Source of the DNA: Candidatus Cloacimonadota bacterium
GTDB lineage: Bacteria > Cloacimonadota > Cloacimonadia > Cloacimonadales > TCS61
DNA length: 35,157 nucleotides
Assembly (NCBI GenBank): GCA_023137125.1
Contig: JAGLPW010000192.1
Location: 1 to 35,157, forward strand
Reading direction: 5' to 3'
Part shown: positions 3,159 to 26,233 of the stretch, in pieces
Position numbering within the stretch: position 1 is the first letter of the stretch
How the letters are laid out: each line of letters starts with the position of its first letter
Program-made: the position numbers and the translations under genes
Notes under the pieces: generated by a model
The model's input: only the letters and a program-made list of their open reading frames with translations
The model's database searches: none
Told to the model about the DNA's origin: nothing

Positions 3159-4241
3159 ATGAATAAGATTCGTTTTGTTTTAATTTGTATCGTATTACTT
3201 ATTTCGATCAATTTTCTTTGGAGTCAGACCGTTGCAAAATGGCACACTTCTATGGGAGAATTTGAGATTACACTGCGTGAGGATCTAGTGCCAATTACAG
3301 TTAATAATTTTGTAGATCTCACAAATTCTAATTTTTATGATGATCTTATCTTTCATCGTGTAATATCTGATTTTATGATCCAGGATGGTTGTCCTTACGG
3401 AACTGGTTACGGTGGACCAGGCTATACTATCCCCGATGAATTTCACCCACTTCTCAACTATAGTGAACCATATACACTTGGTATGGCAAATGCTGGTCCA
3501 AATACAGGTGGATCACAATACTTCATCACTGTAGTACCAACAACCTGGTTAGATACTCTACATACAGTCTTTGGCCATGTGACTATGGGTTCCGATATTG
3601 TGGAAAATATCAGTGAAGTTCCTACTAATGCAAATAATAAACCTTTAGTAGATGTTGTGATAGACAGCATCAGGATAATGACACCACAACTTGATGACTT
3701 CTTGCCACAGGAGGATACTCTTTATGTAAATGCAGGAGATCCCATTGGTTTTGTATTGATCTGCGATGATGAAGGTGTTACTTATTCCTGGTATGTAGAT
3801 GATGAACTACAGCAAGCCACAGGTTTTTCCTTTGACCTCACTCTCACTGTAAATGATTGGCATGAAGTAAAAGGTGTAGTTTCTAATGATAATTATGATC
3901 TGCCAAAAGTATGGTGGGTGTTTATTACTGGTGGATCCGATATAACTAACGATGTTGTAAGCAACAGAACAGTTTTGTATCAAAACATTCCAAATCCTTT
4001 CAATCCTGAAACTAACATTAAATTTTATTTAAAAGATGCTGGTTCTGTTTCTTTAGAAGTATTCAATTTAAAAGGGCAACTGGTAAAAACTCTGGTAAAC
4101 AATGATCTTCCAACTGGAGAACATAGCTTTATTTGGAATGGAAAGGATGATAATGGGAATCAAGTTGCATCTGGAATTTATCTTTATAGCTTGAGAACAA
4201 AAGATATTTCTGAAAAGAAAAAAGCAATTTTACTGAAATAG
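3159..4241 (+). CDS. Secreted cyclophilin-type peptidyl-prolyl isomerase with T9SS sorting tail
   Basis: Signal peptide MNKIRFVLICIVLLISINFLWSQ is followed by a cyclophilin domain (about 24-175). Family hallmarks are visible: TVNNFVDL, the catalytic-arginine segment FHRVISDFMIQDG, ANAGPNTGGSQYFIT and HTVFGHV. This fold catalyses cis-trans isomerisation of X-Pro bonds. A middle Ig/PKD-like beta domain (about 180-265) leads to a C-terminal FlgD-like sorting tail (YQNIPNPFNPETNIKF...WNGKDDNGNQVASGIYLYSL...KKAILLK). Bacterial cyclophilins are normally cytoplasmic or periplasmic, so the T9SS tail implies an isomerase at or outside the cell surface. RBS ggagga lies ahead of the ATG. The FAD gene follows after 7 nt, so the two are likely co-transcribed. 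Confidence 0.92.
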   Translation: MNKIRFVLICIVLLISINFLWSQTVAKWHTSMGEFEITLREDLVPITVNNFVDLTNSNFYDDLIFHRVISDFMIQDGCPYGTGYGGPGYTIPDEFHPLLNYSEPYTLGMANAGPNTGGSQYFITVVPTTWLDTLHTVFGHVTMGSDIVENISEVPTNANNKPLVDVVIDSIRIMTPQLDDFLPQEDTLYVNAGDPIGFVLICDDEGVTYSWYVDDELQQATGFSFDLTLTVNDWHEVKGVVSNDNYDLPKVWWVFITGGSDITNDVVSNRTVLYQNIPNPFNPETNIKFYLKDAGSVSLEVFNLKGQLVKTLVNNDLPTGEHSFIWNGKDDNGNQVASGIYLYSLRTKDISEKKKAILLK

Positions 4242-5895: not shown

Positions 5896-7236
5896 ATGAG
5901 TAAAATTTCACATATTATAAAACGTAGTGGTGCTATTGTCACATTTAAAAAGGAAAGAATTTCTAATGCAATATTTAGAGCTGCTGTAGCAGTTGGTGGG
6001 CGTGACAAAAAAGCAGCCGATAAATTGGCAAATGAAGTTGTTGATACTCTTAATAAAAAATATTCTCATGAGAAAACTCCGTGTATTGAAGATATTCAGG
6101 ATATTGTTGAAAAAGTTTTAATTAAGAATGGTCATACCCAGGTTGCAAAAGCATATATTCTTTATAGAAACAGTAATATCCAGCGTAGGAAAGAGAAGGT
6201 GACAAAAGCTTCTTCCCCATCCGAGAGAATTCCATGGCACAAGATCTGGAAAATACTTGATTGGTCAGTACAAAATAACTTACATACAATTGAAGCATTG
6301 AATAAAAGAATAATAAATGGTGAGTTCCCACATATTGTTCATGAATCTGAAATTGCTTATGCGGATGAAGTCGCTATGGCGGCAGAGCTGATTTCCAACA
6401 GAATAGATAAATTAAAAATGGTTCTTATAACCGGTCCCTCATCTTCAGGGAAAACAACAACCACAATAAAGTTGGAAGAGCACCTAAACAAACTGGGATT
6501 CAAATTTAAAATGTTTGCAGTGGATAATTATTTTTATGATCTGGCAATGCATCCAGTAGATGAATTTGGAGATTACGATTTTGAAACTCCTCAGGCACTC
6601 GATCTGAAATTAATAGATCAACACATAAGTAATTTATGTAACGGAGATGAAGTTATTATTCCATTTTATGATTTTAAAACCGGTACTAGATATCTGGATC
6701 GTACACCTATGAAGCTTGAGAAGAATGAAATTCTGCTTATCGATAGCCTGCACGGACTTTATCCTGAAATGACCAAATCAATTAATAACGATCATAAGTT
6801 TAAATTATACCTTGAACCAATGTTCCAGATCAAAGATAAGTATAGAAAATACCTGCGTTGGACAGATTTCCGCCTGATCCGTAGAATGCTGCGCGATTCA
6901 ACTCATAGAGCCTACAATCCAACCCAAACTCTTGAACACTGGCATTATGTCCGTTCCAGCGAAGTACGTCATATAATCCCATATCTTAATTCTGCTGATT
7001 ACATCATCAACAGTGCCATGCCTTACGAGCTTCCAATTTATAAAGCACGGCTAGGTAAAGAATTTGAAAAATGGACAGAAGAATATAAGGACGATGAACT
7101 AAAAGAAGATGCATTTATGCGTGCTTCACGAATTAATGACTTTATGCAGCAGATAGTTGGTTTTAGTGATGAATCGGCAATTCCACAAGATTCTGTCATT
7201 AGAGAATTCATTGGTGGAAGTATACATAAATATTAA
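5896..7236 (+). CDS. ATP-cone / uridine kinase-like nucleoside kinase fusion
   Basis: Residues 1 to about 100 form an ATP-cone domain (IIKRSGAIVTFKKERISNAIFRAAVAVGG...CIEDIQDIVEKVLIKNGHTQVAKAYILYR), the allosteric nucleotide-binding module best known from ribonucleotide reductases and NrdR. From about residue 175 there is a P-loop kinase domain of the uridine kinase/phosphoribulokinase class: Walker A GPSSSGKTT at 180-188, then FAVDNYFYD, DFETPQALDL and a DSLHGLYP segment. It probably phosphorylates uridine or a related nucleoside, with the ATP-cone sensing nucleotide levels. The domains are seen in the sequence; substrate and regulation are inferred. Length 446 aa; RBS aggaaa precedes the ATG. 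A promoter for the next gene starts immediately after it. Confidence 0.85.
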   Translation: MSKISHIIKRSGAIVTFKKERISNAIFRAAVAVGGRDKKAADKLANEVVDTLNKKYSHEKTPCIEDIQDIVEKVLIKNGHTQVAKAYILYRNSNIQRRKEKVTKASSPSERIPWHKIWKILDWSVQNNLHTIEALNKRIINGEFPHIVHESEIAYADEVAMAAELISNRIDKLKMVLITGPSSSGKTTTTIKLEEHLNKLGFKFKMFAVDNYFYDLAMHPVDEFGDYDFETPQALDLKLIDQHISNLCNGDEVIIPFYDFKTGTRYLDRTPMKLEKNEILLIDSLHGLYPEMTKSINNDHKFKLYLEPMFQIKDKYRKYLRWTDFRLIRRMLRDSTHRAYNPTQTLEHWHYVRSSEVRHIIPYLNSADYIINSAMPYELPIYKARLGKEFEKWTEEYKDDELKEDAFMRASRINDFMQQIVGFSDESAIPQDSVIREFIGGSIHKY

Positions 7237-7300: not shown

Positions 7301-10270
7301 ATGAAGAAAATTGTTATTATATTTATTTTATTATTATTATCTATTAGTATATTTGCTACTCAGCAAAATACTTTTGAACTACAACGTTTGTCTGAAAAAT
7401 TTAAACTTGAATATGAACAGAAAAGAGCGGAAGCATATCAGAAAGCTGCTCAAATGAATTGGCCTACTACATTTACAACCGATGAAGGTTCATTTGCAGA
7501 GTTACAGGTTTTAGATGAATTTGGCATGCCGCAATATTACATAACACATAATGCAAACGCAGCGCAAACAATTTCAACTGACGAAGTATATACCGGTGGA
7601 AGCGCAGGTCTTTCATTAGATGGAACCGGTATAGTAGTTCGAGAATGGGATGGTGGAGGTGTTCGTCTTACACATCAAGAATTTGGTGGAAGAGTAACGC
7701 AGGGTGATAGTCCAAGTGGAACTCATTATCATTCTACACATGTAGCTGGAACTATCATGGCTTCCGGTGTAGTAGCTAGTGCAAAAGGAATGGCATACGC
7801 ATGTAGTTTACGAGCTTTTGATTGGAACAGTGACATTTCAGAAATGGCAACAGAAGCCAGTGCCGGTGCATTAATTTCAAATCACTCTTATGGTTATACT
7901 CGTGGTTGGAGTTATGATCCGGGACCACCTAGTTGGTGGTATTGGTATGGTAGTGTTTCTGTAAGTACTACTGAAGATTATTTATTTGGTTTTTATGATA
8001 GCAACTCACAACAACATGATCAGATAGCATATAATGCACCGGATTACCTTATTGTTAAGTCAGCTGGAAATGATCGAAATGATTCACATACAGGTATCCA
8101 TAAATATTGGAATGGTTCCAGTTGGGTTAATTCATCAGCTCCTAGAGATCCAGATGGGCAATACGACTGTATCGGCACAGTTGGTGTTGCAAAAAATATT
8201 CTCACAGTAGGAGCGGTTAATGATATTATTGGTGGCTATTCTCAACCAAGTGATGTGACTATGAGTTCTTTTAGCTCTTGGGGACCTGCAGATGATGGCA
8301 GGATTAAACCTGATATTTCTGCAAATGGTGTGAGCTTATATTCTACCGATGATGATTCTGATACAGATTATACTTCACTTTCCGGTACATCGATGGCAAC
8401 ACCTTCAGTCACAGGTTCTCTTGCCTTATTGCAAGAATATTACATTTCCCAGCACGCTAGTAATGCTAACATGCTTGCAGCAACATTAAAAGGACTTGTA
8501 ATCCACACTGCTGACGAAGCCGGAAGTAATAACGGACCCGATTATGAATTTGGCTGGGGTTTGATGAACACTGAATCTGCTACAAACGTGATCTCGGATA
8601 ACGGTACTACAGATTATATTCTTGAAACTTCTCTTTCAAATGGCGGAAGTTATACTTTAAATTTAAATTCTGATGGTACTACTCCATTAGTTGCTACAAT
8701 TTGTTGGACGGATCCAGCTCATGCAGCTCTAACTCCTGCACTTAATCCAACTACTAAATTGCTTGTTAATGACTTAGATTTAAGAATTACAAAAACCGGT
8801 TCAACTTATTATCCCTGGAAACTTGATGTAGCAAATCCATCCAATGCTGCTACCAATAGTGGTGATAACGACACAGATAATATTGAGAAAGTTGAAATTT
8901 CTAATCCTAGTTCAGATGAATATACAATAACTGTTTCTCATAAGGGAACGTTAAGCTCATCACAAAATTATTCTCTTATAATATCAGGAATTGACTCTAG
9001 TGTTTTAGTCTCTACACCAACTTTCAGTCCTGCCGGTGGGACCTATTCATCAACTCAAAGTGTGACAATTAGTTGTGCTACTTCTGGATCTACGATATAT
9101 TATACAACTGATGGAACGAATCCTACTACTTCATCTAATCTTTACAGCACACCGGTTAGTGTTTCTTCATCTGTAACTTTGAAAGTAAAAGCTTTTCATT
9201 TACTCTGGAGTGATAGTTCAATAGCTTCTGCTACATATGTGTTGAATCAAAGCAGTGGTTCAGGAGACAACTCGGGTGATACTTCTGGTCCTGCTTTAAT
9301 AGATATGCCATTAACAAATATTGATGGTAATTCAGTAAATCCTGATGTTTCAATTGATCCTTTTGGAGATTTGGGTATTACTGTAAATGTTACTGTAACA
9401 GATGAAGTGCAGGGCTCAGTTCCAGTTGCAAATCCTGATAATGTAATAATCTCGTATGATGTAAATATCACAGGTTCAGTAACTGGCGTGAATCTTGTTT
9501 TTGATCTAGAATTTACTGGACTTTCTAGTTTAGACCAAATCCATTGGTTAAATGGAACCAACTGGGAAGTTCCAAATAATGTTAGCTGGAGTACACCAGA
9601 TCATGTAACTTTTGATCTAACCTTATCAGCAGGAAGAGATGGTTCGACCGAGATCATACTCTCTGGCGACAATCCTCTTCCTGTAACTCTTTCATCTTTC
9701 ACGGCTGCATATATTAATGGTTCACCAATTATTAATTGGGTTACGCAATCTGAAACCGATAATATTGGCTGGAATATATATCGTTCCAATTCATATAATT
9801 TTGGACAGGCTTTCATCCTCAATCTTGAGACTATCCCCGGTAACGGAACAACAAGCCAACCTTCATTCTATTCCTATACAGATGAATATGAAGTATTCGA
9901 GAGTTTTACCTACTGGTACTGGTTGGAAAGTATTAGTGGATCCGGTGAAACTGAAAGTTATGGTCCGGTTTCTTTAACTATTCCGTCCGAGGGGAATGAT
10001 ATTCCTGAAATACCACTTGCAACTGAACTGCGTCAGAACTTTCCAAATCCATTTAATCCCAACACACTCATCTCATTTGATATAAAAGAGAATGAAACAG
10101 GAGTTCTCTCGATTTACAATATTATGGGACAGCTTATTGTAACAGAGGAATTTGAAACAGGCAGACATCAGTATGCCTGGGATGCTCGTAATCATGCTTC
10201 AGGGGTGTATCTTTATAAATTGAAAACCAAGTATTATTCAAAGATCATGAAAATGCTGCTGGTGAAATAG
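7301..10270 (+). CDS. Secreted subtilisin-like (S8) serine protease with T9SS sorting tail
   Basis: Signal peptide MKKIVIIFILLLLSISIFA is followed by a peptidase S8 domain with all three catalytic segments: Asp117 (VVREWDGGGVR), His147 (HYHSTHVAGTI) and Ser364 (LSGTSMATPSVTGS). A beta-sandwich P-domain-like region comes next (about 440-565). At about 570-650 is a chitobiase/hexosaminidase C-terminal-like module (FSPAGGTYSSTQSVTIS...IYYTTDGTNPTTSS). More beta domains lead to the FlgD-like T9SS tail (LRQNFPNPFNPNTLISF...ASGVYLYKLKTK...MLLVK). Expected to be a surface or secreted protease for extracellular protein degradation. RBS gagagg; own promoter upstream and a terminator downstream, so monocistronic. 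Confidence 0.95.
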   Translation: MKKIVIIFILLLLSISIFATQQNTFELQRLSEKFKLEYEQKRAEAYQKAAQMNWPTTFTTDEGSFAELQVLDEFGMPQYYITHNANAAQTISTDEVYTGGSAGLSLDGTGIVVREWDGGGVRLTHQEFGGRVTQGDSPSGTHYHSTHVAGTIMASGVVASAKGMAYACSLRAFDWNSDISEMATEASAGALISNHSYGYTRGWSYDPGPPSWWYWYGSVSVSTTEDYLFGFYDSNSQQHDQIAYNAPDYLIVKSAGNDRNDSHTGIHKYWNGSSWVNSSAPRDPDGQYDCIGTVGVAKNILTVGAVNDIIGGYSQPSDVTMSSFSSWGPADDGRIKPDISANGVSLYSTDDDSDTDYTSLSGTSMATPSVTGSLALLQEYYISQHASNANMLAATLKGLVIHTADEAGSNNGPDYEFGWGLMNTESATNVISDNGTTDYILETSLSNGGSYTLNLNSDGTTPLVATICWTDPAHAALTPALNPTTKLLVNDLDLRITKTGSTYYPWKLDVANPSNAATNSGDNDTDNIEKVEISNPSSDEYTITVSHKGTLSSSQNYSLIISGIDSSVLVSTPTFSPAGGTYSSTQSVTISCATSGSTIYYTTDGTNPTTSSNLYSTPVSVSSSVTLKVKAFHLLWSDSSIASATYVLNQSSGSGDNSGDTSGPALIDMPLTNIDGNSVNPDVSIDPFGDLGITVNVTVTDEVQGSVPVANPDNVIISYDVNITGSVTGVNLVFDLEFTGLSSLDQIHWLNGTNWEVPNNVSWSTPDHVTFDLTLSAGRDGSTEIILSGDNPLPVTLSSFTAAYINGSPIINWVTQSETDNIGWNIYRSNSYNFGQAFILNLETIPGNGTTSQPSFYSYTDEYEVFESFTYWYWLESISGSGETESYGPVSLTIPSEGNDIPEIPLATELRQNFPNPFNPNTLISFDIKENETGVLSIYNIMGQLIVTEEFETGRHQYAWDARNHASGVYLYKLKTKYYSKIMKMLLVK

Positions 10271-14115: not shown

Positions 14116-15642
14116 ATGGCTAAGCAAAGAAAAACAGCGATAAATCCAAGAAGAGATGAAGATTATCCAGGCTGGTATCAGGAAGTTGTTAAAGCTGCTG
14201 ATATGGCAGAAAGCAGCGATGTTCGCGGATGTATGGTTATCAAGCCATGGGGTTATGCAATTTGGGAAAATATTCAAAAGAACTTAGATATAATGTTCAA
14301 AGATACGGGACACGTAAATGCATATTTTCCACTTTTTATTCCAAAAAGTTTTTTTGAAAAAGAAGCCGAACATGTAGAAGGCTTTGCTAAAGAATGTGCA
14401 GTTGTTACACATACTAGATTGGAAGATGACGGAAAAGGTGGATTGAAACCTGCTGGGAAATTAACGGAAGAACTTATTGTACGTCCTACCAGTGAAACCA
14501 TTATTGGAGCTTCTTTCAGTAAATGGATAAATTCTTATCGAGATTTGCCTTTGCTTATAAATCAATGGGCAAATGTTGTTAGATGGGAAATGCGAACTCG
14601 ATTATTTCTGCGCACAACTGAATTTTTGTGGCAAGAAGGACACACAGCTCATGAGACCAAGAAAGATGCATTTGAAGAAACTTTTAAAATGTTAAACGTA
14701 TATGCTGATTTCGCAGAGAAATTTCTTGCTATGCCGGTTATTATGGGTGAAAAAACCGAATCCGAAAGATTCCCCGGCGCTTTAAGTACTTATTCTATTG
14801 AAGCAATGATGCAGGATAAAAAAGCTCTTCAGTCAGGTACATCCCACTTCTTAGGATTAAATTTTGCGAAAGCTTCCAATATAAAATTCCAAAATAAAGA
14901 TGGTAAAGAAGAATACGCATGGACTACATCCTGGGGAGTTTCTACAAGGCTTATTGGTGCACTTATTATGGCACACAGTGATGATGATGGTTTAGTGCTC
15001 CCACCAAAAATAGCACCTTCACATCTTGTGATGGTTCCAATTTATAGAACCGATGAAGAGCGTGCAAAAGTTATGACTTTTATTGATGAACTTATCTCAA
15101 AATTAAAGAAATTGAGATACAATGAAGAGAAAATTCGATACCAAATTGATGACCGCGATATGCGTGGTGGAGAAAAACTTTGGGATTGGATAAAAAAAGG
15201 TGTCCCTGTAAGGCTTGAGATCGGACCTCGTGATATTGAGAATAATTCCGTTTTCATGGGAAGAAGAGATAAGGACGCAAAAGATAAAACAGGAATGAAG
15301 GTAGATGATTTTGTGAACAACCTAACGAATATTCTTGATGAAATTCAGCAGAATATCTATGATAAAGCTCTGAGTTTCCGTAATGAGAATACAATAAACA
15401 TTAATGATAAAGATAAATTTTATAAATTCTTTACACCAAAAGATAAGAACAATCCTGAGATCCATGGTGGATTTGCTATGAGCCATTGGTGTGGAAATTC
15501 TGAGTGCGAAGAGAAAATCAAAGATGATTTGAAAGTAACGATCCGCTGCATTCCCATTAATAATAAACAGGAAGAAACAGGAAAATGTATTTACTGCGGG
15601 AAAGAAAGTAAAAAACGCGTGGTTTTCGCGAAGGCATATTAA
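14116..15642 (+). CDS. proS: Prolyl-tRNA synthetase, archaeal/eukaryal-type
   Basis: Charges tRNA-Pro with proline in the cytoplasm. The 508-aa protein has the class II catalytic core: motif 1 region near GCMVIKPWGYAIWENIQ, LIVRPTSETIIGASFSKWI, and motif 2 RWEMRTRLFLRTTEFLWQEGHTAHET. Motif 3 region (STRLIGALIMAHSDDDGLVLPPKIAP) leads into the anticodon-binding domain. The C-terminal domain has Cys pairs (WCGNSEC, CIYCGK) and ends in Tyr, as in type 3 (archaeal/eukaryal) ProRS. The bacterial-type editing insertion between motifs 2 and 3 is absent. RBS ggagtt lies 12 nt before the ATG. Its stop overlaps the next start by one base (TAATG), coupling the two genes. Confidence 0.97.
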   Translation: MAKQRKTAINPRRDEDYPGWYQEVVKAADMAESSDVRGCMVIKPWGYAIWENIQKNLDIMFKDTGHVNAYFPLFIPKSFFEKEAEHVEGFAKECAVVTHTRLEDDGKGGLKPAGKLTEELIVRPTSETIIGASFSKWINSYRDLPLLINQWANVVRWEMRTRLFLRTTEFLWQEGHTAHETKKDAFEETFKMLNVYADFAEKFLAMPVIMGEKTESERFPGALSTYSIEAMMQDKKALQSGTSHFLGLNFAKASNIKFQNKDGKEEYAWTTSWGVSTRLIGALIMAHSDDDGLVLPPKIAPSHLVMVPIYRTDEERAKVMTFIDELISKLKKLRYNEEKIRYQIDDRDMRGGEKLWDWIKKGVPVRLEIGPRDIENNSVFMGRRDKDAKDKTGMKVDDFVNNLTNILDEIQQNIYDKALSFRNENTININDKDKFYKFFTPKDKNNPEIHGGFAMSHWCGNSECEEKIKDDLKVTIRCIPINNKQEETGKCIYCGKESKKRVVFAKAY

Positions 15643-16457
15643 TGGATTTTTATATCAATAAAGGTGACGAAATAGAATTATTCAAGCTTCTCAAAGCCGC
15701 TGGTATATGTGATTATTACAGTGATATCCGTCATTTTATCAAAGATGGCCTTGTGAAAGTGAATGGTGAAATTAACAAACTAAAACATACGATGATACAG
15801 ATTGGTGATCTGGTTGAATATAAAGAATATAAGATAGATATCTTGGAAAGTAGACCAAAAAAAGAACAAAGAGTAGAAAGAGAGCAAATCTCAAAAGAAT
15901 ATAGACCGCCATCTCATCGTGTTCAACACGGAAAATTCAAATCATGGAGACCTAAACCAATTGAATTGGAAAACAAACTTGAAAACGAGATTCACACAAT
16001 ATCACAAAAATTACACGAAAAAATGCTGTATAAAAAGCTCACTCTATCACTTGCAGAATCATGTACAGGTGGGATGATACAAGAGATGATCACATCAAAT
16101 TCAGGTGCATCAGAATATTTCATGGGTGGAGTTGTAAGTTATTCAAATCAGGCAAAAATTAATGTTCTAAATGTTAAACCGGAAATAATTAATAAATTTG
16201 GTGCTGTATCCAAAGAGACTGCAATAGAGATGGTTAAGGGTGCAAAAGCACTTTTTAAAACAACTATTTCTGCCTCTATCACGGGTATTGCAGGTCCATC
16301 GGGTGGAACTCTAGAAAAGCCTGTCGGAACTATCTATCTTGCCGTTTCTATTCATGATAAAATAATCAGCAGGAAACTATCCCTCTCGGGAAATCGAGAA
16401 AATATTAGAAAAAAATCAGTTTTAATATTATTTAAACTGCTTTTAGAAAATATATAG
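15642..16457 (+). CDS. S4 RNA-binding domain fused to PncC/CinA C-terminal amidase domain
   Basis: Residues about 1-70 are an S4-like RNA-binding module of the YbcJ/S4_2 type (FKLLKAAGICDYYSDIRHFIKDGLVKVNGEINKLKHTMIQIGDLVEY). After a charged linker (about 70-115), residues about 118-271 match the CinA C-terminal/PncC family: LSLAESCTGGMIQEMITSNSGASEYFMGGVVSYSNQAK, FGAVSKETAIEMVKGA and SITGIAGPSGGTLEKPVGTIYLAV. PncC hydrolyses nicotinamide mononucleotide to nicotinic acid mononucleotide, and the Ser of AESCTGG is consistent with an active enzyme. The CinA N-terminal MoCF domain is absent. The fusion is visible in one uninterrupted frame; why an RNA-binding domain is attached is unknown. Its start overlaps the proS stop by one base. 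Confidence 0.88.
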   Translation: MDFYINKGDEIELFKLLKAAGICDYYSDIRHFIKDGLVKVNGEINKLKHTMIQIGDLVEYKEYKIDILESRPKKEQRVEREQISKEYRPPSHRVQHGKFKSWRPKPIELENKLENEIHTISQKLHEKMLYKKLTLSLAESCTGGMIQEMITSNSGASEYFMGGVVSYSNQAKINVLNVKPEIINKFGAVSKETAIEMVKGAKALFKTTISASITGIAGPSGGTLEKPVGTIYLAVSIHDKIISRKLSLSGNRENIRKKSVLILFKLLLENI

Positions 16458-16515
16458 TTCTTGCCAAAAAATATTAATCACTTGTTTTTAACTTAAACTA
16501 AATTTGGAGATTTGG

Positions 16516-19500
16516 ATGTATAGAATCGCATTGATATTATTATTGGTCATTTTCTCTAGTTCGATCTTTGCTAACAATTTTGAAGTAATTAGCCAAACCG
16601 AGAATGAACTGATTGTTAAATTCATTCTGCCTGAATTTGATAGGGAAATAATTTCAACAAAATTTGGATCCTTCAATAAAATAATCTGTGCTGATGCATC
16701 ATATCCGGTTGAAGGTGGACATCCATTATTACCTTTCTTCACAGAAATTATTGGACTACCAATTGATGGGGATGCTTCATTCCAAATAATAGGGAAAAAA
16801 CAAAGAACTTTACGCAACTTCAAAGTATATCCTGCAGAAAAGATGGTGCCTTCCGAAACTTTAGTTAACTATCAATTCCATATGGAAAAAGACATATACA
16901 ATTCATCAGCACTTTATCCAGCTAATATTATTGAGAAGGGATCTCCAGCTTATATCGGTGACAGATATTTTATGGGATTCAATATTCATCCTTTTCAATA
17001 TAGAGCAAAGAATACCGAGCTTTTAATAACTGAAGAACTTACATTACGTATTAAAATAAACGGTAACAAAAGTAGAAGCATCTCACAAGGTGAAAACTAC
17101 ATTGATAAAATTGGTGACTCATTCTTTTTGAATAACAATTATTCTAAGGGTTGGAGAAAAGAAAAACAGAAATCAAGCTATATCCCATCCAGAGATGGTG
17201 ATGAAGTAAATGAATTTCGAATCATTGTGGATGAAGAGGGAATTTATAAAATAAGCTATGAGTATATTACGGAAATACTGGCAACGCTAGATTTTCCAAT
17301 TGAATATGAAATGGCTTTTGACTGGGATGACATAGATCCTCGAAATTTGGAATTGTCATGCATGGGAAATCAGGTTCCAATACATTTTGTAGGTGCTGCA
17401 GATGGTTCTTTTGATCCGGGAGATTACTTTGAATTTTATGGAGATATTCATTACGGTGAAAATCATTATTACGATGATTATACATATGAGAATTCTTATT
17501 TCTTAAAATTGCTGGATCACCCGGGAAGCAGAATGGCAGTAGAAAACGGTGGTTTGGGAAATATCAACCCGGGATTGTTCACAGTTCCAGAATCATATCA
17601 GCAAACCGTACATTTTGAAGAGCAGAACTCAAAGGATCATCTTGGTGCACAATATCTCTGGAATACCCCTGATTTCTACCGTGAAGATATCTGGTTCTGG
17701 GATAGGATCTATTCTCCTTCCTTAGAGATATACCCTTTTGAACTTCAATATCCCGATCAGCGTCCAACAAAAAGATTTACAGCGCAAGTCTGCCTTTTCA
17801 GTCTTACGTTCAATGAAGATGATTATTACCAGATAAATCACTCTGCACAAATTAACATCAACTCCTCGCAAATTGATCAGCATGAATGGAATGGACAGGC
17901 TGAGCAAATGTTCAATAATATAGATAATCCCTTACCAAATAGCTATTTATACAATGGAGATAATAATTTATATGTAAATTTACCCGGAATTCCAGGCATC
18001 GAAAATCAACAGGTTCTGCTTGATTACTTTGATGTTACTTACTGGCGCGAATATAAAACCGATACTGATGAAATAAAATTTACCGAACCTCAGGATGAAG
18101 ATCTGGGTTTATTCCAATTTGAACTGAATAATTTTTCTACAGATCAAATCTCAGTTTATAAATTGGGAATCAGTTTTATAGAAAACGTTCAAGTAGAATC
18201 TTTCCTGGGAAATGGAGCTCCTCCTTTTAAGATATCATTTCAGGATAGTTTGATCAATCATAATACTGACTATTTTGCAGTTACAGAAGAAATGAAGAAG
18301 CTGCCTGTTAAAATTCTTCCGAATATTCCTTCCAATTTGAGATCACAAACAAACTTTGCTAAATATATTGTAATAACAATAACAGATTTTATAGAAAATG
18401 AATCATTATTACAATTCAAACAAACATGGGAAAGTCAGGGTAAGATCGTGAAAGTCGTTGATCTTCAAGATATATTTGATGAATTTAATTATGGTATCCG
18501 CTCTGCGCAAGCAATAAAAGATTTCATTCAATATGCGTATAATAACTGGAGTGGATCGGGTGTTACTCATGTTCTTTTTATGGGAGATGGAATTACCGAT
18601 GAAAGAGATAACAGCCCTAGTCGTGAGTTTAATCTTATTCCATTTAAAAATATTTGGGTTGAATATTGGGGTGCTATCGCCAGCGATAATTGGCTTGGAT
18701 GTATTGTTGGTGATGATCTGGTTCCGGATGTTGCAATTGGTCGTATTAATATTTGGAATGAAGATCAAATAGAAGATGTTGTAAATAAAACTATTCATTA
18801 TATAGATCAACCAAATTTTCAAGATCTCTGGCATAGTCATGTTACTCTTGCAGCTGGTGGAAATCCGGGAGAGGGAGCTGTTTTTGCAAATCAATCAGAA
18901 ATAATTCGTTCATTGTGGATACCAGATGATTATAACGTAAGCCGTGTTTATTGTAACACCGATGGTTTACCAAATTCATATGCAGGGAATACAACAGACC
19001 TTATCAGCAACATTAATGATGGAACTATCTATTTACAGTTCATGGGTCATGGTGGTGGTCATATTTGGGCAGATTACAACCTATTAAATATTGCAGATAT
19101 AGCAACTTTCAATAATGAGAACCTTCCTTTTGTAGCAAGTTTGTCATGTTATGGTTCCGCCTTCAATACTCCCCAAAGCTCCTGTATTGGAGAGGAATTG
19201 ATCCTACGTCCAAATCGTGGTGCGATCGGACATATTGGTTTTACAGGTTATGGTTATCTCTATGGTGATCTTTCTTTCAGTAAATATCTTACCGAAGCAA
19301 TCTTTGATAAGCAAGTGCCAACTATTGGTGAGATTGTAAACTTTACAAAAGCTAAGTTCTTTGCCTCATATCATAATCAAGGAGTGAAAGTAGCCCTTAT
19401 ACAAGGTGGTGCTCTTTTAGGTGATCCTATGATCCAACTTGTTTTACCATATGACCAGAAACAAGTCGATCTAAATAATTACAATCTTGTAGAAGGAGAT

Positions 19501-21519
19501 ACTTTGGTAATAAGTTCTAATGTTGGGTCACAAATAAGTAATGGAAAATTTGTAGTTTTTGATGAGGATGATTCTCAATTACCTCTCGATCAATACTATC
19601 CGTTAGAAATCCCAGCAATTAATGATACACTTTCAGTTTCTGATTTTATAGTTCCAGAAAGTAGTAACTCAATTTATTCTCAATATGTAAAAATATTTGC
19701 TTATGGCGAAGACGGAGAAATAACCGGTATCACAAATTTTACCGTGGGTCAATCTGCAATGGTAAATCTTGAAGTTATCCCTGATCCACCAGAAGAAGGA
19801 GATGAGATAAATATTCGTGCTGATTTCTTTGATGAGCATGGATTAGCAGATATCTATTTTGTAAGTGATACTTCATTAATTGAGATGATCAATATAGAAG
19901 AACATACATATGAATTAGAAAGCCCTCTCCCTGCACACTTTGCCGGAGATGAGATTAGCTTCCATTTTAAAATATTTGATACCATTGGAGATTCTACTAT
20001 TACGAATTCTGAGGTCATAATTGTTGCTGGACCCGATCTTGTAATGGAACATTTTGAACTTGCCGAATTTGAAAATGCACCCGCTGCAAAAGTGCTTATT
20101 CGAAATTCCGGTTCGACAGTAGCAGGTTCTTGCAATCTAAGGTTATACGATGTAACAGATGTTCCAATATTATTAACAACTATTCAAATATCACCTCTTG
20201 CCGTTCTGGAAAACAGATGGGAATATATTCCAATTCCACTCCTGAATGGAGAAATTGAATTCCGTGCAATTGTTAATGAAAATGAAGAGTCTTTTTCTGA
20301 GATCCATACTTTTAATAATGAAATCAATTCTGATAGTTATTCAATAAATATGTTCGAAGTCGGAGCTTCAGGATCAGTAGTTTCTGCACTAAGTCTGGAT
20401 AATAATCTACTTTGTGAATTCCCGTCGGATTTCTTAGTTGAACCTGCAATTTTCTACATAAATTCAATTATTACAGAAGAACCGATAGATCAACCGGATA
20501 TTAAAGAGATCTTGCCGGCATATCCAACCAGCTCATTCTGTTATGAAATTGGAACTCTTGATGAATCCTGTCTGGCAGATACTATTGGTCATTTCCAAAA
20601 CAATAGATCCATTTCACTTACTTTCAGTTATGACCCGGCAGATTCACTTATGCAAGCTATGGAAGCCGAAGGTAATTTCAATATCTATAGATGGGAAAGT
20701 GAATTCAATAAATGGATAAAATATGGCGGTTTGATAGATTCTGTAGCAAATACTGTTACCTACGAAGTAAATAGAATTGGAATTTACTCGATCTTACAAA
20801 ACAATGATGACCAAGCTCCTTATATTGAAGCAAATGTTGAAGGGCAGGAATACACACAAACCTTAAATTCTGGTCCTGGACAAGAATTTACTCATGGTGG
20901 ATACATTTCTAAAGATGGTGTGATCTCATTCGTTTTGATGGACGCCAACGGAATTGATGTTTTTGAAAATGGCATAACACTTTATCTTTCTGATGGCACA
21001 GATGTTACTGAAATTGGAAGTGATGAATATGCATTAACCATAACTCCCGGAAATCTTAATCAACTCCCACTTAAATATCAGCTAAATAATCTAACAAAAG
21101 GAACATACTATATTAGTTTAGAATGTCATGATGTTAATGGAAATGAAGAAAACCTGGAAATTGAATTTATTGTAAATGATAAGTTCGATATTATAAATTT
21201 TGCAAATTATCCAAATCCGGTTAAAACCGCAACTGTTAATCATCACAATTCAGGCAGAACAAGATTTACTTATGTCCTAACAGACGATGCAGACAAAGTT
21301 AATATAAAAATATATACGGTTAGCGGAAGATTGATCAAAACATTTAAAGATCTTCCATCTTCTGTTGGATATCATGAATATCCCCGAGGTCCTCTCGGTT
21401 GGGATTGCCGAGATAAGGAGGGATATTTCTTAGCGAATGGTGTATATTTTTATCGAATAACTGCAACTAAAGGTAATAAAAAAATTGAGGAAACACAGAA
21501 AATGGCAATATTAAAATAG
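16516..21519 (+). CDS. porU: C25 (gingipain-family) cysteine peptidase, probable T9SS sortase PorU
   Basis: The track starts at a TTG (16504), but ATG 16516 has GGAG 7 nt upstream and directly opens a signal peptide (MYRIALILLLVIFSSSIFA), giving 1667 aa. A long N-terminal region leads to the C25 domain (about 610-980) with His845 (LQFMGHGGGH), Cys878 (ASLSCYGSAF), VPDVAIGRI and GGALLGDPMIQL. The 33-residue His-Cys spacing is as in gingipains. From about 1432 the tail (APYIEANVEGQEYTQ...LTKGTYYISLECHDVNGN...NYPNP...IYTVSGRLIKT) follows the PorU pattern rather than a plain cargo tail. PorU cleaves sorting domains of T9SS cargo and attaches them to surface lipopolysaccharide. The PorV-family gene starts 9 nt later. 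It is longer than Bacteroidota PorU, so a secreted C25 protease remains possible. Confidence 0.72.
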   Translation: MYRIALILLLVIFSSSIFANNFEVISQTENELIVKFILPEFDREIISTKFGSFNKIICADASYPVEGGHPLLPFFTEIIGLPIDGDASFQIIGKKQRTLRNFKVYPAEKMVPSETLVNYQFHMEKDIYNSSALYPANIIEKGSPAYIGDRYFMGFNIHPFQYRAKNTELLITEELTLRIKINGNKSRSISQGENYIDKIGDSFFLNNNYSKGWRKEKQKSSYIPSRDGDEVNEFRIIVDEEGIYKISYEYITEILATLDFPIEYEMAFDWDDIDPRNLELSCMGNQVPIHFVGAADGSFDPGDYFEFYGDIHYGENHYYDDYTYENSYFLKLLDHPGSRMAVENGGLGNINPGLFTVPESYQQTVHFEEQNSKDHLGAQYLWNTPDFYREDIWFWDRIYSPSLEIYPFELQYPDQRPTKRFTAQVCLFSLTFNEDDYYQINHSAQININSSQIDQHEWNGQAEQMFNNIDNPLPNSYLYNGDNNLYVNLPGIPGIENQQVLLDYFDVTYWREYKTDTDEIKFTEPQDEDLGLFQFELNNFSTDQISVYKLGISFIENVQVESFLGNGAPPFKISFQDSLINHNTDYFAVTEEMKKLPVKILPNIPSNLRSQTNFAKYIVITITDFIENESLLQFKQTWESQGKIVKVVDLQDIFDEFNYGIRSAQAIKDFIQYAYNNWSGSGVTHVLFMGDGITDERDNSPSREFNLIPFKNIWVEYWGAIASDNWLGCIVGDDLVPDVAIGRINIWNEDQIEDVVNKTIHYIDQPNFQDLWHSHVTLAAGGNPGEGAVFANQSEIIRSLWIPDDYNVSRVYCNTDGLPNSYAGNTTDLISNINDGTIYLQFMGHGGGHIWADYNLLNIADIATFNNENLPFVASLSCYGSAFNTPQSSCIGEELILRPNRGAIGHIGFTGYGYLYGDLSFSKYLTEAIFDKQVPTIGEIVNFTKAKFFASYHNQGVKVALIQGGALLGDPMIQLVLPYDQKQVDLNNYNLVEGDTLVISSNVGSQISNGKFVVFDEDDSQLPLDQYYPLEIPAINDTLSVSDFIVPESSNSIYSQYVKIFAYGEDGEITGITNFTVGQSAMVNLEVIPDPPEEGDEINIRADFFDEHGLADIYFVSDTSLIEMINIEEHTYELESPLPAHFAGDEISFHFKIFDTIGDSTITNSEVIIVAGPDLVMEHFELAEFENAPAAKVLIRNSGSTVAGSCNLRLYDVTDVPILLTTIQISPLAVLENRWEYIPIPLLNGEIEFRAIVNENEESFSEIHTFNNEINSDSYSINMFEVGASGSVVSALSLDNNLLCEFPSDFLVEPAIFYINSIITEEPIDQPDIKEILPAYPTSSFCYEIGTLDESCLADTIGHFQNNRSISLTFSYDPADSLMQAMEAEGNFNIYRWESEFNKWIKYGGLIDSVANTVTYEVNRIGIYSILQNNDDQAPYIEANVEGQEYTQTLNSGPGQEFTHGGYISKDGVISFVLMDANGIDVFENGITLYLSDGTDVTEIGSDEYALTITPGNLNQLPLKYQLNNLTKGTYYISLECHDVNGNEENLEIEFIVNDKFDIINFANYPNPVKTATVNHHNSGRTRFTYVLTDDADKVNIKIYTVSGRLIKTFKDLPSSVGYHEYPRGPLGWDCRDKEGYFLANGVYFYRITATKGNKKIEETQKMAILK

Positions 21520-21528
21520 GAAATAATA

Positions 21529-22542
21529 ATGAAAAAAATAACTGTACTCTTAATCGTATTGCTCTTATCGGTTTCTCTTTCAGCAGGAAGATACGCCGGT
21601 GATTTCATGGTGATAGGTTCCGGAGTCCGCTCTTCTGGAATGGGAAAAGCATTCACGGCAATTGCCAATGATGGATCTGCAATTTATTGGAATGCATCCG
21701 GTATTGCACAAATGCGGGAAACAGAGATTGGAATTATGAGAGCATTCTTATACAATAGTCTTGCATCTTATGACAATTTTAGTTTCTGCCAACCACTTCC
21801 AAATGATGTTACAATTGGTTTCAACTGGACTCGACTATCTATAGATGATATTCCCGTTTTTCTGGAAGAACATCTGGTGGGAAATCCCAGTTTTCGATCT
21901 GCTTATCATGAATACAATTTAACAGGAATACCGGATGACTGGATGACCAGTACCGATGATCTTCTGCAATTTGCTTTTGCAAAGCATATACATTATGATC
22001 TAAATCTGGGCTGGCTCTTTTTTGACCTTCCCTTTGAACTTTACTTTGGTGGGAACATAAAGTATATTAAGCGTAAAATAGATGATAGTATTGGGAACGG
22101 TACCGGATTTGATTTTTCGTTTTTAACAAGGACTAGCCTTGCTGTTCTTTTTGAAAGAGATTGGTTGGGAGATTTTTCTTTTGGAGTTAATTTTCAGGAT
22201 ATTGGAGGAAGCAATATTACCTGGGATGTAGTTGATGATAACTCTGATCATCAGGATGAAGTGTTGATGAACAGTAAATTGGGGATGGCAGTAATTCAAC
22301 CGCTTCCATTCATCAATTCCACCCTTACATTATCACATGATATTGATTATATTTACAGTACCGTCCATCATTTTGGACTTGAATATGAATATAGAGATCT
22401 GGTTGAAGTTAGATTAGGATATTATGATACTAATTTCACAACCGGTCTTACAATAATGTATAAAGATTTTGCACTTGATTACGCATTTCTCACAAATAAT
22501 TTAGCCAGTACAAATCGTGTTGGTTTGAGAGTTAGTTTCTAG
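21529..22542 (+). CDS. porV: PorV/PorQ-family outer-membrane beta-barrel protein
   Basis: Signal peptide MKKITVLLIVLLLSVSLSAG is followed by the PorV/PorQ (UPF0164-like) N-terminal signature AGDFMVIGSGVRSSGMGKAFTAIANDGSAIYWNASGIAQM. The rest alternates short amphipathic strands, many ending in aromatic residues, to the C-terminal phenylalanine (NRVGLRVSF), as expected for a FadL-like outer-membrane barrel. In Bacteroidota, PorV shuttles T9SS cargo to PorU, and the genes are adjacent, as here with a 9-nt gap. RBS is weak (taggaaataata), suggesting translation follows from the upstream gene. Length 337 aa. The exact paralogue (PorV versus PorQ or another family member) is inferred from context. 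Confidence 0.8.
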   Translation: MKKITVLLIVLLLSVSLSAGRYAGDFMVIGSGVRSSGMGKAFTAIANDGSAIYWNASGIAQMRETEIGIMRAFLYNSLASYDNFSFCQPLPNDVTIGFNWTRLSIDDIPVFLEEHLVGNPSFRSAYHEYNLTGIPDDWMTSTDDLLQFAFAKHIHYDLNLGWLFFDLPFELYFGGNIKYIKRKIDDSIGNGTGFDFSFLTRTSLAVLFERDWLGDFSFGVNFQDIGGSNITWDVVDDNSDHQDEVLMNSKLGMAVIQPLPFINSTLTLSHDIDYIYSTVHHFGLEYEYRDLVEVRLGYYDTNFTTGLTIMYKDFALDYAFLTNNLASTNRVGLRVSF

Positions 22543-22555
22543 CAGGGAGTTCAAA

Positions 22556-23383
22556 ATGAAAATATCTTTTCTAATGTTGCTAATGTTGATACCATTTATA
22601 ATTATTTTGGGATGTACAGGAGAAGAAAGTTTGGGTGTCGATACACAAGCTCCAAATAAACCATTATTAGTTCCTCATCTAGGAGATACTGGAGATGTTT
22701 TTCAAGATTATCAGGGTAATTTAGATACTTTGAATTTTTATAATACTTACAACAATATAAATTTTGAGAACAATGGCATAGATGCTGTTATGGAAGGTGA
22801 CTGGATAAAAGTTCAATGGTTTCGTTTGGAAGATTCTGATATTGATTACTTGAAAATATTCAGATTCAGCGCACAAGATTATTATGCAGACACACTAAAT
22901 TTTGCACAAATCATTGATACTGTAAATTATGAAGAACAAATTTATTATGAAGATAGAACTTCAACGATAGATAAAAATTATTTCTATTTTATTGAAGCAA
23001 TTGATAATGCCGGAAATTCAACACTTTCCGATACAACCGGATATAAGTTGATCGATAAACCTTATTTGATCTCTCCGGCTGATAATAGTTCATATCAAAA
23101 TATTTCTGAAGTCGATTTTGAATGGCAACAAGTTGGATCCATTGCTATGCAACACAGAGTACTTGTTTTTGATGAAAATAGAAAACTCATCTGGCAACAA
23201 ACAGTGTTAGATACAGGAAGCTTCAATGTCACATATGATGGACCTCCGATTGATCCCGGTTCTGTACTGATCTGGAGGGTTGATTCCTTTGGTTGGAATT
23301 CAGAAATTACTATTGAGGGAAATTATTATTTTATTGAATCGGGAGCTGAATCCATAGAACGTTATATATTCATAGACGAGTAA
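22556..23383 (+). CDS. Lipoprotein with two fibronectin III-like segments
   Basis: The lipoprotein signal peptide MKISFLMLLMLIPFIIILGC has lipobox IILGC (Cys20). The mature protein begins with a loop-rich segment (VDTQAPNKPLLVPHLGD). It then has two beta-sandwich-like parts: about 70-165 (IKVQWFRLEDSDIDYLKIFR...YFYFIEAIDNAGNSTLSD, classic FN3 pattern) and about 168-262 (LISPADNSSYQNISEVDFEWQQV...LIWRVDSFGW). No enzymatic motif. It follows the PorV-like gene by 13 nt, so it is likely co-expressed and could be a periplasmic or outer-membrane accessory of that system; this is inference from position only. RBS caggga. The next gene has its own probable promoter. Confidence 0.7.
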   Translation: MKISFLMLLMLIPFIIILGCTGEESLGVDTQAPNKPLLVPHLGDTGDVFQDYQGNLDTLNFYNTYNNINFENNGIDAVMEGDWIKVQWFRLEDSDIDYLKIFRFSAQDYYADTLNFAQIIDTVNYEEQIYYEDRTSTIDKNYFYFIEAIDNAGNSTLSDTTGYKLIDKPYLISPADNSSYQNISEVDFEWQQVGSIAMQHRVLVFDENRKLIWQQTVLDTGSFNVTYDGPPIDPGSVLIWRVDSFGWNSEITIEGNYYFIESGAESIERYIFIDE

Positions 23384-23438: not shown

Positions 23439-23930
23439 ATGAGAAAAACTATATTTATAATATTTTTATTAATATTAGGATTAAATTTGTGGGCTCAAAT
23501 TGAAAGTAGCGGAGTTCCCAGCTATAATCCTGGAGCTGTTTACCAATACTCCGGTTCTCTTACGGGAACCGAGCAGCTCAAGATCAGAACTTATATTTGG
23601 GGACAGGTTAGAAATCCTGGACTCTATATTGTTCCAGATGACACAGATCTGTTAACATTGATCTCATCTGCCGGCGGTCCTACGGAAAATGCAAAACTTT
23701 CTAAAATTAGAATAATCCGTTCTTCAGCAGAAGGTGAAAAGGTTATTTGGGTTGATATGAAAGAATATCTGGAGACAGGACAAGCAGAATTAATTCCGAT
23801 ATTAAAGCCAGGAGATACCGTAATCGTTTCAGGTTCAACGTATTATGCGTTTACAAAAGCAGTCAATTGGCTTTCTCAAATTGCCGTAATGTTAAGTGTA
23901 TATGTCGCAATTTCAAATATTAGTAATTAA
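23439..23930 (+). CDS. SLBB-domain protein, minimal polysaccharide-export component
   Basis: Signal peptide MRKTIFIIFLLILGLNLWAQ is followed by a short linker. One SLBB domain (about 47-130) comes next, with the usual pattern YIWGQVRNPGLYIVPDDTDLLTLISSAGGPTENAKLSKIRIIR and LKPGDTVIV. A C-terminal hydrophobic helix (AVNWLSQIAVMLSVYVAIS) completes it. SLBB domains occur in Wza-type outer-membrane polysaccharide exporters. At 163 aa this protein lacks the N-terminal poly-export domain, so it is a reduced relative. It lies 14 nt before the Wzc-type kinase gene, the normal partner of Wza, supporting a role in surface polysaccharide export. RBS aaggag. Confidence 0.85.
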   Translation: MRKTIFIIFLLILGLNLWAQIESSGVPSYNPGAVYQYSGSLTGTEQLKIRTYIWGQVRNPGLYIVPDDTDLLTLISSAGGPTENAKLSKIRIIRSSAEGEKVIWVDMKEYLETGQAELIPILKPGDTVIVSGSTYYAFTKAVNWLSQIAVMLSVYVAISNISN

Positions 23931-23944
23931 GTAAATGAGGTAAT

Positions 23945-26233
23945 ATGAAAGATCAGTTCAATCAAGCTAAATTCAACGAGGATTTTGAAGAGCAGGAGAT
24001 TAAACTAACCGATTACTTAAATATAATTATTAGATTCAAATGGATCGTTGCATCCATTTTCCTAGCAATTTTTGTGGTCTCCTTTATATACACTGCCAAA
24101 GCACCTAGAATTTATAAAGCGACTTCTAAAGTGCTTCTGGAAGAGAAGATGGGGAGTAATCTATTTTTCACATCAATGAGTAATAAGGCTTCATCAATAA
24201 ATAACCAAATCCAGATTTTGCAAAGTTTTCCTGTAATGAAAATTACAAATCAAATCCTCTCTAGACATGAAAAATACAAGACATTTCCTATTTCACAAAT
24301 AGAGGGACTCCCTGAATCATATTTAAAAGAAAATTTAGAGATCGATACTGAGAGAGAGACCGATATTCTTATCATAAGTTTTGAATCTACAAATCCATTA
24401 GAAGCTAAAGAAGTTGCAAATGCTGCCGCGCATGCATTAATGCAACAAGATACGGATTATGCAAGAAGAGAATTTAGGAACGCAAGAGAGTTTCTGGCAA
24501 ATCAACTTGATGAACATGACCGTCGATTACGCTCTGCAGAAGAAGAACTTCGAATCTATAAAATTGAGCATGGCGTTTCAATGCTATCAGAAGAAACTCA
24601 GAAACTTATCGAACAGACATCTGATCTTACTGCAATGCTAACTGAAGCAGAAACAGAATTGAGTGTTGCAAATAACCATCTGGACTTCCTTAAAATGGAG
24701 CTGAACGTACAAGATGATTTTCTTTCTGATGTAAATTCTGTACTCTCATCACCATTACTTGAAAAATTGAAACAAGAAACCATTGCGCTTCAAATTCAAT
24801 ATGTAAATTTTTTAACAAAATCAGATTATTCACCCGATCATCCTGAACTTGTTGCATTAAAAAATTCTATAGAAAGTGCAAAAATAAAACTCAATGAAGA
24901 GATCCAGAGAATCCTGCTGGTGAAATCCGGTTCTGCAGATCCATTGATGTTCCGATCTAGTTTGATAGAGAAGATCTCTACAGCTCAAATCGAGCAAAAT
25001 ATTAAATCTTCTAAAGTTGTAAGTTTACGTGCAGCAGTAGAGAAATATAATGAAAAAATGTCTCAACTTCCCGATACTGAAGTTCAGCTGGCAAGATTGG
25101 AACGTAATTATAAGATCAATGAAAAAACATATACAATGCTTATTGAAAAGTATGAAGAAGCAAAGATCGCTGAGAAATCTAAGCTAGGTAAGATCAGAAT
25201 TGTGGAAGAAGCACGTATCCCAGGTGCACCAATAAAACCTAATAAGAAAATGAATATGATGATAGCAATTGTACTTGGTTTAGGTCTTGGAATTGGTGCT
25301 GCACTCCTGGTTCACTCATTAGATTCAAAAATAAGAACATTTGATGATGTTCGAAAATATGTGTCATTACCTGTTTTGGGAACTATACCCCTTATACAAA
25401 CAGATGATATTGAACTTGATAATATTGAACAGAAAATTGAAGCAGCCAACGGACCTGAAAAGGAAAAATATAAAATAATATTACAACAGGTCCAAGAAAG
25501 ATTGATAACAAATTATTCTCCTAAATCTTCGACTGCTGAAGCTTTCAGGATATTACGTACAAATATAATTTCCAGAAAGAAGAATTCTGACTGCACAACA
25601 CTATTAATCACTAGTTCGGGTCCAAAAGAAGGAAAATCCACGATCCAGGCAAATATGGCTACAGCTTTAGCTCAAATGGATGCAAAAGTAATCCTGGTCG
25701 ATCTGGACTTAAGACGCCCAATGGTTCACACGATCATGGGCTTTGAAAAAGAGATTGGAATAAGTGATTTTCTTATAGATAAATCTACTGAAATAGAAAA
25801 AGTTATTAAAAAATCTAATGTCGAGAATCTTGATATAATAACCAGTGGGATCATACCACCAAATCCTTCAGAATTACTTGCTTCAAAACGAATGGATGAA
25901 GCAATTGAAAGCCTTAAAGAAAAATATGACTATATTCTGTTCGATTCACCACCGGTTATTGCAGTTACAGACTCCATGGTAATGGCAAATAAAGTGGATC
26001 TATTAATCCTTGCGATCCGAGTTGACCAGGCAGATAAGAACGTTGTTAAAAGGACAAAAGAGCTTCTTGAGAATATAAAAGTTGATATTGCCGGAGTTGT
26101 AATAAACGGTATCCAACCACATAGATATTATAATAGTTACGAGTATAATTATTATTATTATTATTATTATGGAAAGAGTGAAGAAAAAAAATCTAAGAAT
26201 AAATTCTTCGGCAAAAATAAACCTCTTTCTTGA
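23945..26233 (+). CDS. Wzc-type polysaccharide copolymerase/tyrosine autokinase
   Basis: This inner-membrane protein controls chain length and export of surface polysaccharide. Order: Wzz domain with a first TM helix (FKWIVASIFLAIFVVSFIYTA, about 31-52), and a periplasmic region with coiled-coil stretches (about 175-255 and 355-390). The second TM (MIAIVLGLGLGIGAALLV) is near 437-455. The cytoplasmic BY-kinase has Walker A GPKEGKST near 558, Walker A' VILVDLDLRRP near 585 and Walker B YDYILFDSPP near 662. It ends with a Tyr cluster (RYYNSYEYNYYYYYYYGK) as expected for autophosphorylation, then a Lys-rich tail. Seven consecutive Tyr codons are a pure TAT repeat. The last 65 nt overlap the ispE frame. 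No glycosyltransferase genes are adjacent. Confidence 0.93.
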   Translation: MKDQFNQAKFNEDFEEQEIKLTDYLNIIIRFKWIVASIFLAIFVVSFIYTAKAPRIYKATSKVLLEEKMGSNLFFTSMSNKASSINNQIQILQSFPVMKITNQILSRHEKYKTFPISQIEGLPESYLKENLEIDTERETDILIISFESTNPLEAKEVANAAAHALMQQDTDYARREFRNAREFLANQLDEHDRRLRSAEEELRIYKIEHGVSMLSEETQKLIEQTSDLTAMLTEAETELSVANNHLDFLKMELNVQDDFLSDVNSVLSSPLLEKLKQETIALQIQYVNFLTKSDYSPDHPELVALKNSIESAKIKLNEEIQRILLVKSGSADPLMFRSSLIEKISTAQIEQNIKSSKVVSLRAAVEKYNEKMSQLPDTEVQLARLERNYKINEKTYTMLIEKYEEAKIAEKSKLGKIRIVEEARIPGAPIKPNKKMNMMIAIVLGLGLGIGAALLVHSLDSKIRTFDDVRKYVSLPVLGTIPLIQTDDIELDNIEQKIEAANGPEKEKYKIILQQVQERLITNYSPKSSTAEAFRILRTNIISRKKNSDCTTLLITSSGPKEGKSTIQANMATALAQMDAKVILVDLDLRRPMVHTIMGFEKEIGISDFLIDKSTEIEKVIKKSNVENLDIITSGIIPPNPSELLASKRMDEAIESLKEKYDYILFDSPPVIAVTDSMVMANKVDLLILAIRVDQADKNVVKRTKELLENIKVDIAGVVINGIQPHRYYNSYEYNYYYYYYYGKSEEKKSKNKFFGKNKPLS
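26150..26170 (+). repeat. TAT trinucleotide microsatellite encoding seven tyrosines
   Basis: (TAT)7 runs in frame within the C-terminal tyrosine cluster of the wzc-like gene. Its last bases form the ATG used as the listed ispE start. Unit-number change would alter the count of phosphorylatable tyrosines without a frameshift. Confidence 0.9.

Follow-up and report, generated by a model that had tools for sequence, protein, structure and literature searches.

A probable second PorU-family enzyme with a PorV-family partner, distinct from PorU, in Cloacimonadota

In Bacteroidota, the T9SS is usually pictured with a single translocon, a single sortase (PorU) and a single main carrier (PorV). The locus described here, from a Cloacimonadota bacterium, encodes a large C25-family protein that is directly followed by a PorV-family barrel, and it raises the question of whether this protein is the PorU sortase of a T9SS outside Bacteroidota, as originally predicted, or a different member of the same family. 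The window, i.e. the whole stretch of 35,157 nucleotides that was analyzed, is a complete contig (C104), one of 199 in a draft genome of 2.9 Mb. Its nearest relatives, Candidatus Tenebribacter and other Cloacimonadota, are 75-89% identical over the C25 protein.

The C25 gene and its neighbors

The following features were identified in and downstream of the C25 gene. Proteins of the same kind as the window protein are called type A C25 proteins.

16516..21519, + strand: PorU-like C25 protein (type A), 1,667 aa, signal peptide-like N-terminus (open reading frame and profile matches)
16597..17136, + strand: Propeptide_C25, aa 28-207 (64 bits)
17212..18363, + strand: N-terminal PorU-type region, aa 233-616, ahead of the C25 domain (PorU and PorU2 model matches)
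18364..19440, + strand: Peptidase_C25, aa 617-975 (263 bits, cutoff 23)
19048-19050, + strand: catalytic His845 (alignment of type A proteins)
19147-19149, + strand: catalytic Cys878 (alignment of type A proteins)
19441..20895, + strand: post-C25 region, ~345 aa longer than in Cloacimonadota PorU (architecture comparison)
20878..21513, + strand: PorU-like C-terminal region with tail domain, where the protein is best conserved (67-70% identity between families)
21529..22542, + strand: PorV/PorQ-family barrel, 337 aa, 9 nt past the C25 gene (profile matches)
22556..23383, + strand: lipoprotein, 275 aa, lipobox LGC (third gene at 16/19 testable loci)
23439..23930, + strand: SLBB-domain protein of polysaccharide-export type, 163 aa (15/19 testable loci)
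23945..26233, + strand: Wzz/GNVR/AAA_31 protein, 762 aa, a Wzc-type chain-length regulator and kinase (15/19 testable loci)

The C25 gene starts with ATG at 16516, and a TTG lies in frame at 16504. Its product displays the PorU architecture, running from Propeptide_C25 through the PorU-type N-terminal region and the C25 domain to the PorU-like C-terminus. The N-terminal matches begin at position 7 of the PorU model and at position 33 of the PorU2 model, and the C-terminus aligns to positions 888-1095 of the PorU model with 88.5 bits, which bears out the PorU-pattern C-terminus that had been read from the sequence. An FlgD_ig tail is found on the protein; its own TIGR04183 score of 17.8 lies under the 23-bit cutoff. 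A CARDB/Ig-like part was detected within the post-C25 region in 7 of the 20 orthologues. The AlphaFold model of aa 976-1667, built on a shallow alignment from the same genus only, reached a pLDDT of 36, too poor for a fold search. Profile matches of the extra region to effector chains in the PDB (E 0.7-0.8) concern unrelated proteins and were dismissed as chance.

The 1,667-aa frame and its gingipain-like catalytic dyad were confirmed by the open reading frame and the alignment: His845 and Cys878 are 33 residues apart, just as the dyad of P. gingivalis PorU is spaced. Both residues are invariant in all 21 aligned type A proteins, and the dyad is likewise intact in the 17 PorU proteins aligned (17/17). 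The genome encodes 22 C25 domains. Among 21 non-PorU-type C25 domains examined, mostly from this genome, nine have lost the catalytic His, replaced by Tyr, Trp, Phe, Thr or Asp, while retaining the Cys; loci of the genome itself with such domains are L041, L045, L046, L048, L050 and L051. Such His-less domains are apparent pseudo-proteases within an expanded C25 family. A 610-aa protein on another contig (C10; L043:8616-10448) is a second member of the PorU clade in which the catalytic Cys is replaced by Gly; it adjoins a cluster of T9SS-tailed proteins and is possibly an inactive PorU paralogue.

Type A orthologues were found in 105 of the 118 Cloacimonadota genomes and in 69 of the 71 of good quality, and the gene is single-copy across the phylum. 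It evolves more slowly than PorU.

With the PorV/PorQ family model (NF033709, cutoff 90 bits), the barrel that starts 9 nt downstream reaches 88.1 bits. Three orthologues score 99.2, 93.1 (L067 and L069, respectively) and 76.8 bits, two of them over the cutoff. On the PorV2 model, the barrel and its orthologues reach 76-95 bits, which is near their PorV-family score and far above that on PorV or PorQ. The best PDB match of the barrel profile is PorV (6h3i, E 0.0015); the AlphaFold model (pLDDT 31, shallow same-genus alignment only) was unusable for a fold search. The predicted pairing with a PorV-family gene holds beyond the window, since such a gene directly follows the type A gene at 18 of the 19 testable loci. 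Because the pair is conserved across the order, its occurrence here is not due to chance.

The five genes from the C25 gene to the Wzc-type gene are separated by gaps of 9, 13, 55 and 14 nt. One genome (G038) carries a type A gene without any of the four partner genes, and in another (G028) the SLBB and Wzc genes are absent from the type A locus. The wider neighborhood partly consists of housekeeping genes (CinA, PurD, SpoVG, Prs and ribosomal proteins), so the adjacency of the SLBB and Wzc genes could be positional. An upstream gene of ~410 aa in other families was considered as a further partner and set aside, as its sequence reads as PurD (phosphoribosylamine-glycine ligase). In the window, positions 15642-16457 encode an S4 RNA-binding domain fused to a CinA C-terminal domain, and a longer homologue of ~407-415 aa occupies this place in other families. 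Elsewhere in the window, at 5896-7236, a uridine-kinase-like domain carries a fused ATP-cone-like N-terminus.

T9SS components in the genome and the phylum

The literature already contains a proposal, thinly supported, that Cloacimonadota have a T9SS (PMC11285876, which cites PMC8542988). Here, a SprA of 2,036 aa was found on contig C198 of the same genome, and SprA was detected in 37 of 40 relatives, with none of the 25 good-quality genomes among them lacking it. At least 150 proteins of the genome carry a TIGR04183 type A tail over the cutoff of 23 bits. The three tailed proteins that had been noticed near the C25 gene are among those with scores over the cutoff:

720-2984: type A-tailed protein (TIGR04183, 33.6 bits)
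3159-4241: type A-tailed cyclophilin-type peptidyl-prolyl isomerase (TIGR04183, 31.3 bits)
7301-10270: type A-tailed protein (TIGR04183, 36.0 bits)

Besides the cyclophilin-type isomerase, apparently secreted or exposed at the surface, this set comprises a protease of S8 type and a protein of 754 aa.

The searches for the remaining core components, whose controls held no known T9SS genome, gave a different picture. GldM (PorM), searched with two models, gave no match in the genome and no score over the cutoff in any of 40 genomes, and GldL (PorL) was not found in the one genome searched, i.e. the genome studied here; divergent forms of either may be missed by these models. The GldK (PorK) equivalog was over its cutoff in none of 40 genomes, most matches being partial and confined to the model's C-terminal half. 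The original prediction of a T9SS-type display system in a non-Bacteroidota lineage is thus upheld for SprA and the tailed proteins, and not for those parts of PorKLMN that were searched (GldK, GldL and GldM).

Two loci on other contigs combine motor-type genes with PorV-family barrels. The first (contig C142, L057:123-5834; L106-L122) encodes a TonB-dependent receptor, ExbB, two ExbD proteins, TonB, a protein of ~1,040 aa whose tail is PorZ-like, and a PorV-family barrel. The ExbB-ExbD-ExbD-TonB-PorV-family cluster is kept in most of 17 relatives, and its ~1,040-aa protein occurs in 25/25 genomes. With GldLM undetected, this cluster is a candidate for the motor of SprA, or it is a plain TonB operon. 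At the second locus (contig C69, L061:880-8010), a MotA-MotB pair adjoins a TPR-containing PorV-family protein and a surface-type protein of 957 aa; it is a candidate for another envelope motor tied to a PorV-like barrel.

The window protein compared with PorU, PorU2 and gingipains

On the PorU model (NF033707, an equivalog with a curated cutoff of 420 bits), the window protein scores 289 bits and all type A proteins scanned fall between 247 and 289 bits. The top score among the C25 proteins of its own genome belongs to a protein of another kind (C158, type C), which is 1,070 aa long, is N-terminally reduced and reaches 386.9 bits on the PorU model, under the same cutoff, and 52 bits on the PorU2 model. 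Its orthologues in other families of the order measure 1,278-1,387 aa, and scans of two of them gave 606 and 624 bits. The one from G030 aligns to P. gingivalis PorU (6za2) over the entire length with 191 bits, and its gene is located two genes away from sprA. PorU is also the best solved structure for the window protein, which aligns to 6za2 in two pieces with 73.9 bits. With P. distasonis PorU as query, all type C proteins were retrieved at 85-237 bits and just one type A protein, at 50 bits. The closest match in the genome to Bacteroidota PorV lies elsewhere as well: the C143 protein scores 168 bits on the PorV model versus 30 for the window barrel.

A tree of 60 C25 domains was built with two Bacteroidota PorU references, the second of which, from P. 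distasonis, comes from an entry submitted as a plasmid. PorU and type C were grouped with 100/99 support and type A formed a separate clade, also with 100/99; a constrained grouping of type A with PorU was rejected (AU p = 0.0025). In an earlier C25-domain tree, whose only PorU reference sat on a long branch, the grouping of type A with PorU was not rejected (p = 0.32). Judged by these sequence comparisons, the PorU orthologue of the genome is not the window gene but most likely C158. As the window gene belongs to a separate, phylum-wide clade, the prediction of an unusually large PorU sortase therefore falls. What survives of the classification by profile and phylogeny is an architecture of PorU rather than gingipain type; the score of 289 against 420 and the position outside the clade of PorU and type C do not agree with an assignment to PorU.

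The window pair thus shares features with several known systems. Like Bacteroidota PorU and PorV (NF033707, NF033710; 6za2, 6h3i), it comprises a C25 protein with the His-Cys spacing of 33, PorU-type N-terminal and C-terminal tail regions and a PorV-family gene immediately downstream. Unlike PorU, the window protein is 1,667 aa long instead of ~1,100-1,300, with ~345 more residues past the C25 domain, and it has an extra Propeptide_C25 N-terminus (a domain present in Cloacimonadota PorU proteins too), scores under the cutoff and belongs to another clade, with PorU being encoded elsewhere in the genome. It resembles the putative PorU2 (NF052324) in covering the N-terminal model positions 33-767 of 879, and the barrel is nearer to the putative PorV2 (NF052325) than to PorV or PorQ. 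However, the two reach only 190 of 450 and 76 of 325 bits on these models, and we therefore assign the pair to neither PorU2 nor PorV2; PorU also gives the window protein a higher score than PorU2 does. The pair thus stays under the cutoffs of PorU, PorU2, PorV and PorV2, and the PorU2 cutoff was passed by 0/40 Cloacimonadota genomes. Our literature search found no paper on PorU2/PorV2 or on Cloacimonadota PorU. With gingipains and secreted C25 proteases, the window protein shares the C25 catalytic domain, Propeptide_C25 and a T9SS-type tail, but it differs from them in domain order, in its PDB matches (34.8 for gingipain R versus 73.9 for PorU) and in being conserved and single rather than part of an expanded cargo family.

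Three readings without a second sortase were weighed. That this T9SS has the window protein as its PorU sortase, simply a large one, is highly improbable: the protein's PorU-model score, its best structure match, the adjoining PorV-family gene, as in porU-porV of P. distasonis, and the result with a single PorU reference would fit, but the C158 type is the better PorU in every test and linked to sprA in one relative, and the best PorV match is not the window barrel either. A surface protease, either a gingipain-like hydrolase or a maturation protease, which its own PorV-like barrel would anchor to the outer membrane and which would perform no transpeptidation, is possible yet doubtful. Members of the C25 family are commonly proteases, the propeptide and the dyad are kept in the window protein, and the genome encodes 20 more C25 domains besides this protein and C158, many of them T9SS-tailed. 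Against a protease role, the PorU-type N-terminal region is missing from the gingipain-type paralogues, and the C25 domain starts at aa 617 (~607-671 in window-type proteins) versus ~165-260 in the full-length paralogues of gingipain type; moreover, the C-terminus aligns to PorU, and the gene is single-copy, phylum-wide and slow-evolving.

That the pair serves not T9SS sorting but the assembly of the outer membrane or envelope, with the barrel as assembly accessory and the C25 protein as quality-control protease, is improbable. A BAM complex has been described in Bacteroidota (PMC12611786), a PorV-family protein of the genome weakly matches the NCBIfam model of BamG (outer-membrane protein assembly), and housekeeping genes lie beside the window gene. 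Nevertheless, the BamG model is unmatched by the window barrel itself, whose nearest models are those of the PorV family and PorV2.

A possible second sortase and carrier

Based on domain architecture, profile scores and phylogeny, the window pair very probably represents a second PorU-family enzyme with a PorV-family partner, distinct from PorU. Our preferred reading, to which we assign a probability of about one half, is that this pair acts as a second sortase and carrier module. In P. gingivalis, PorV carries tailed cargo, while PorU cleaves the tail and attaches A-LPS (PMC5562754, PMC8545088). In a model patterned on this linkage of cargo to A-LPS by P. gingivalis PorU (PMC8545088), the window protein would be exported by Sec and subsequently by the SprA translocon via its own tail, and would remain docked through this strongly conserved tail on the adjoining PorV-like barrel. 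The tail region being the best conserved part of type A proteins is consistent with a tail that may dock on a fixed partner and stay uncleaved. Outside the cell, the protein would then act as a transpeptidase, cutting the tail off a subset of T9SS-tailed proteins and joining these to a surface glycan. Transpeptidase activity of the type A protein on T9SS clients is conceivable, at slightly less than even odds.

The acceptor in this second-sortase model would be a glycan whose length or export is governed by the neighboring SLBB and Wzc proteins. Both proteins are components of Wzx/Wzy-type glycan export. As conserved neighbors from glycan-export families, they may thus provide the acceptor as their product, although we regard a nearby Wzc-dependent glycan in this role as a tentative and rather unlikely proposal. 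The complete arrangement, in which a Cloacimonadota T9SS would operate without GldLM and GldK, and the PorU-like/PorV-like pair would work in parallel with classical PorU, attaching other clients to another acceptor, a Wzc-dependent capsule-type glycan, is in its entirety unlikely.

For annotation, these results call for caution, as the large C25 gene that Cloacimonadota carry beside a PorV-family gene does not encode PorU. Named genes are now available for studying T9SS function outside Bacteroidota, including the power source of SprA where GldLM are undetected. A phylum that keeps PorU plus a slower-evolving PorU-like/PorV-like pair suggests that the use of C25 transpeptidases for surface attachment diversified early, perhaps along with a second acceptor.
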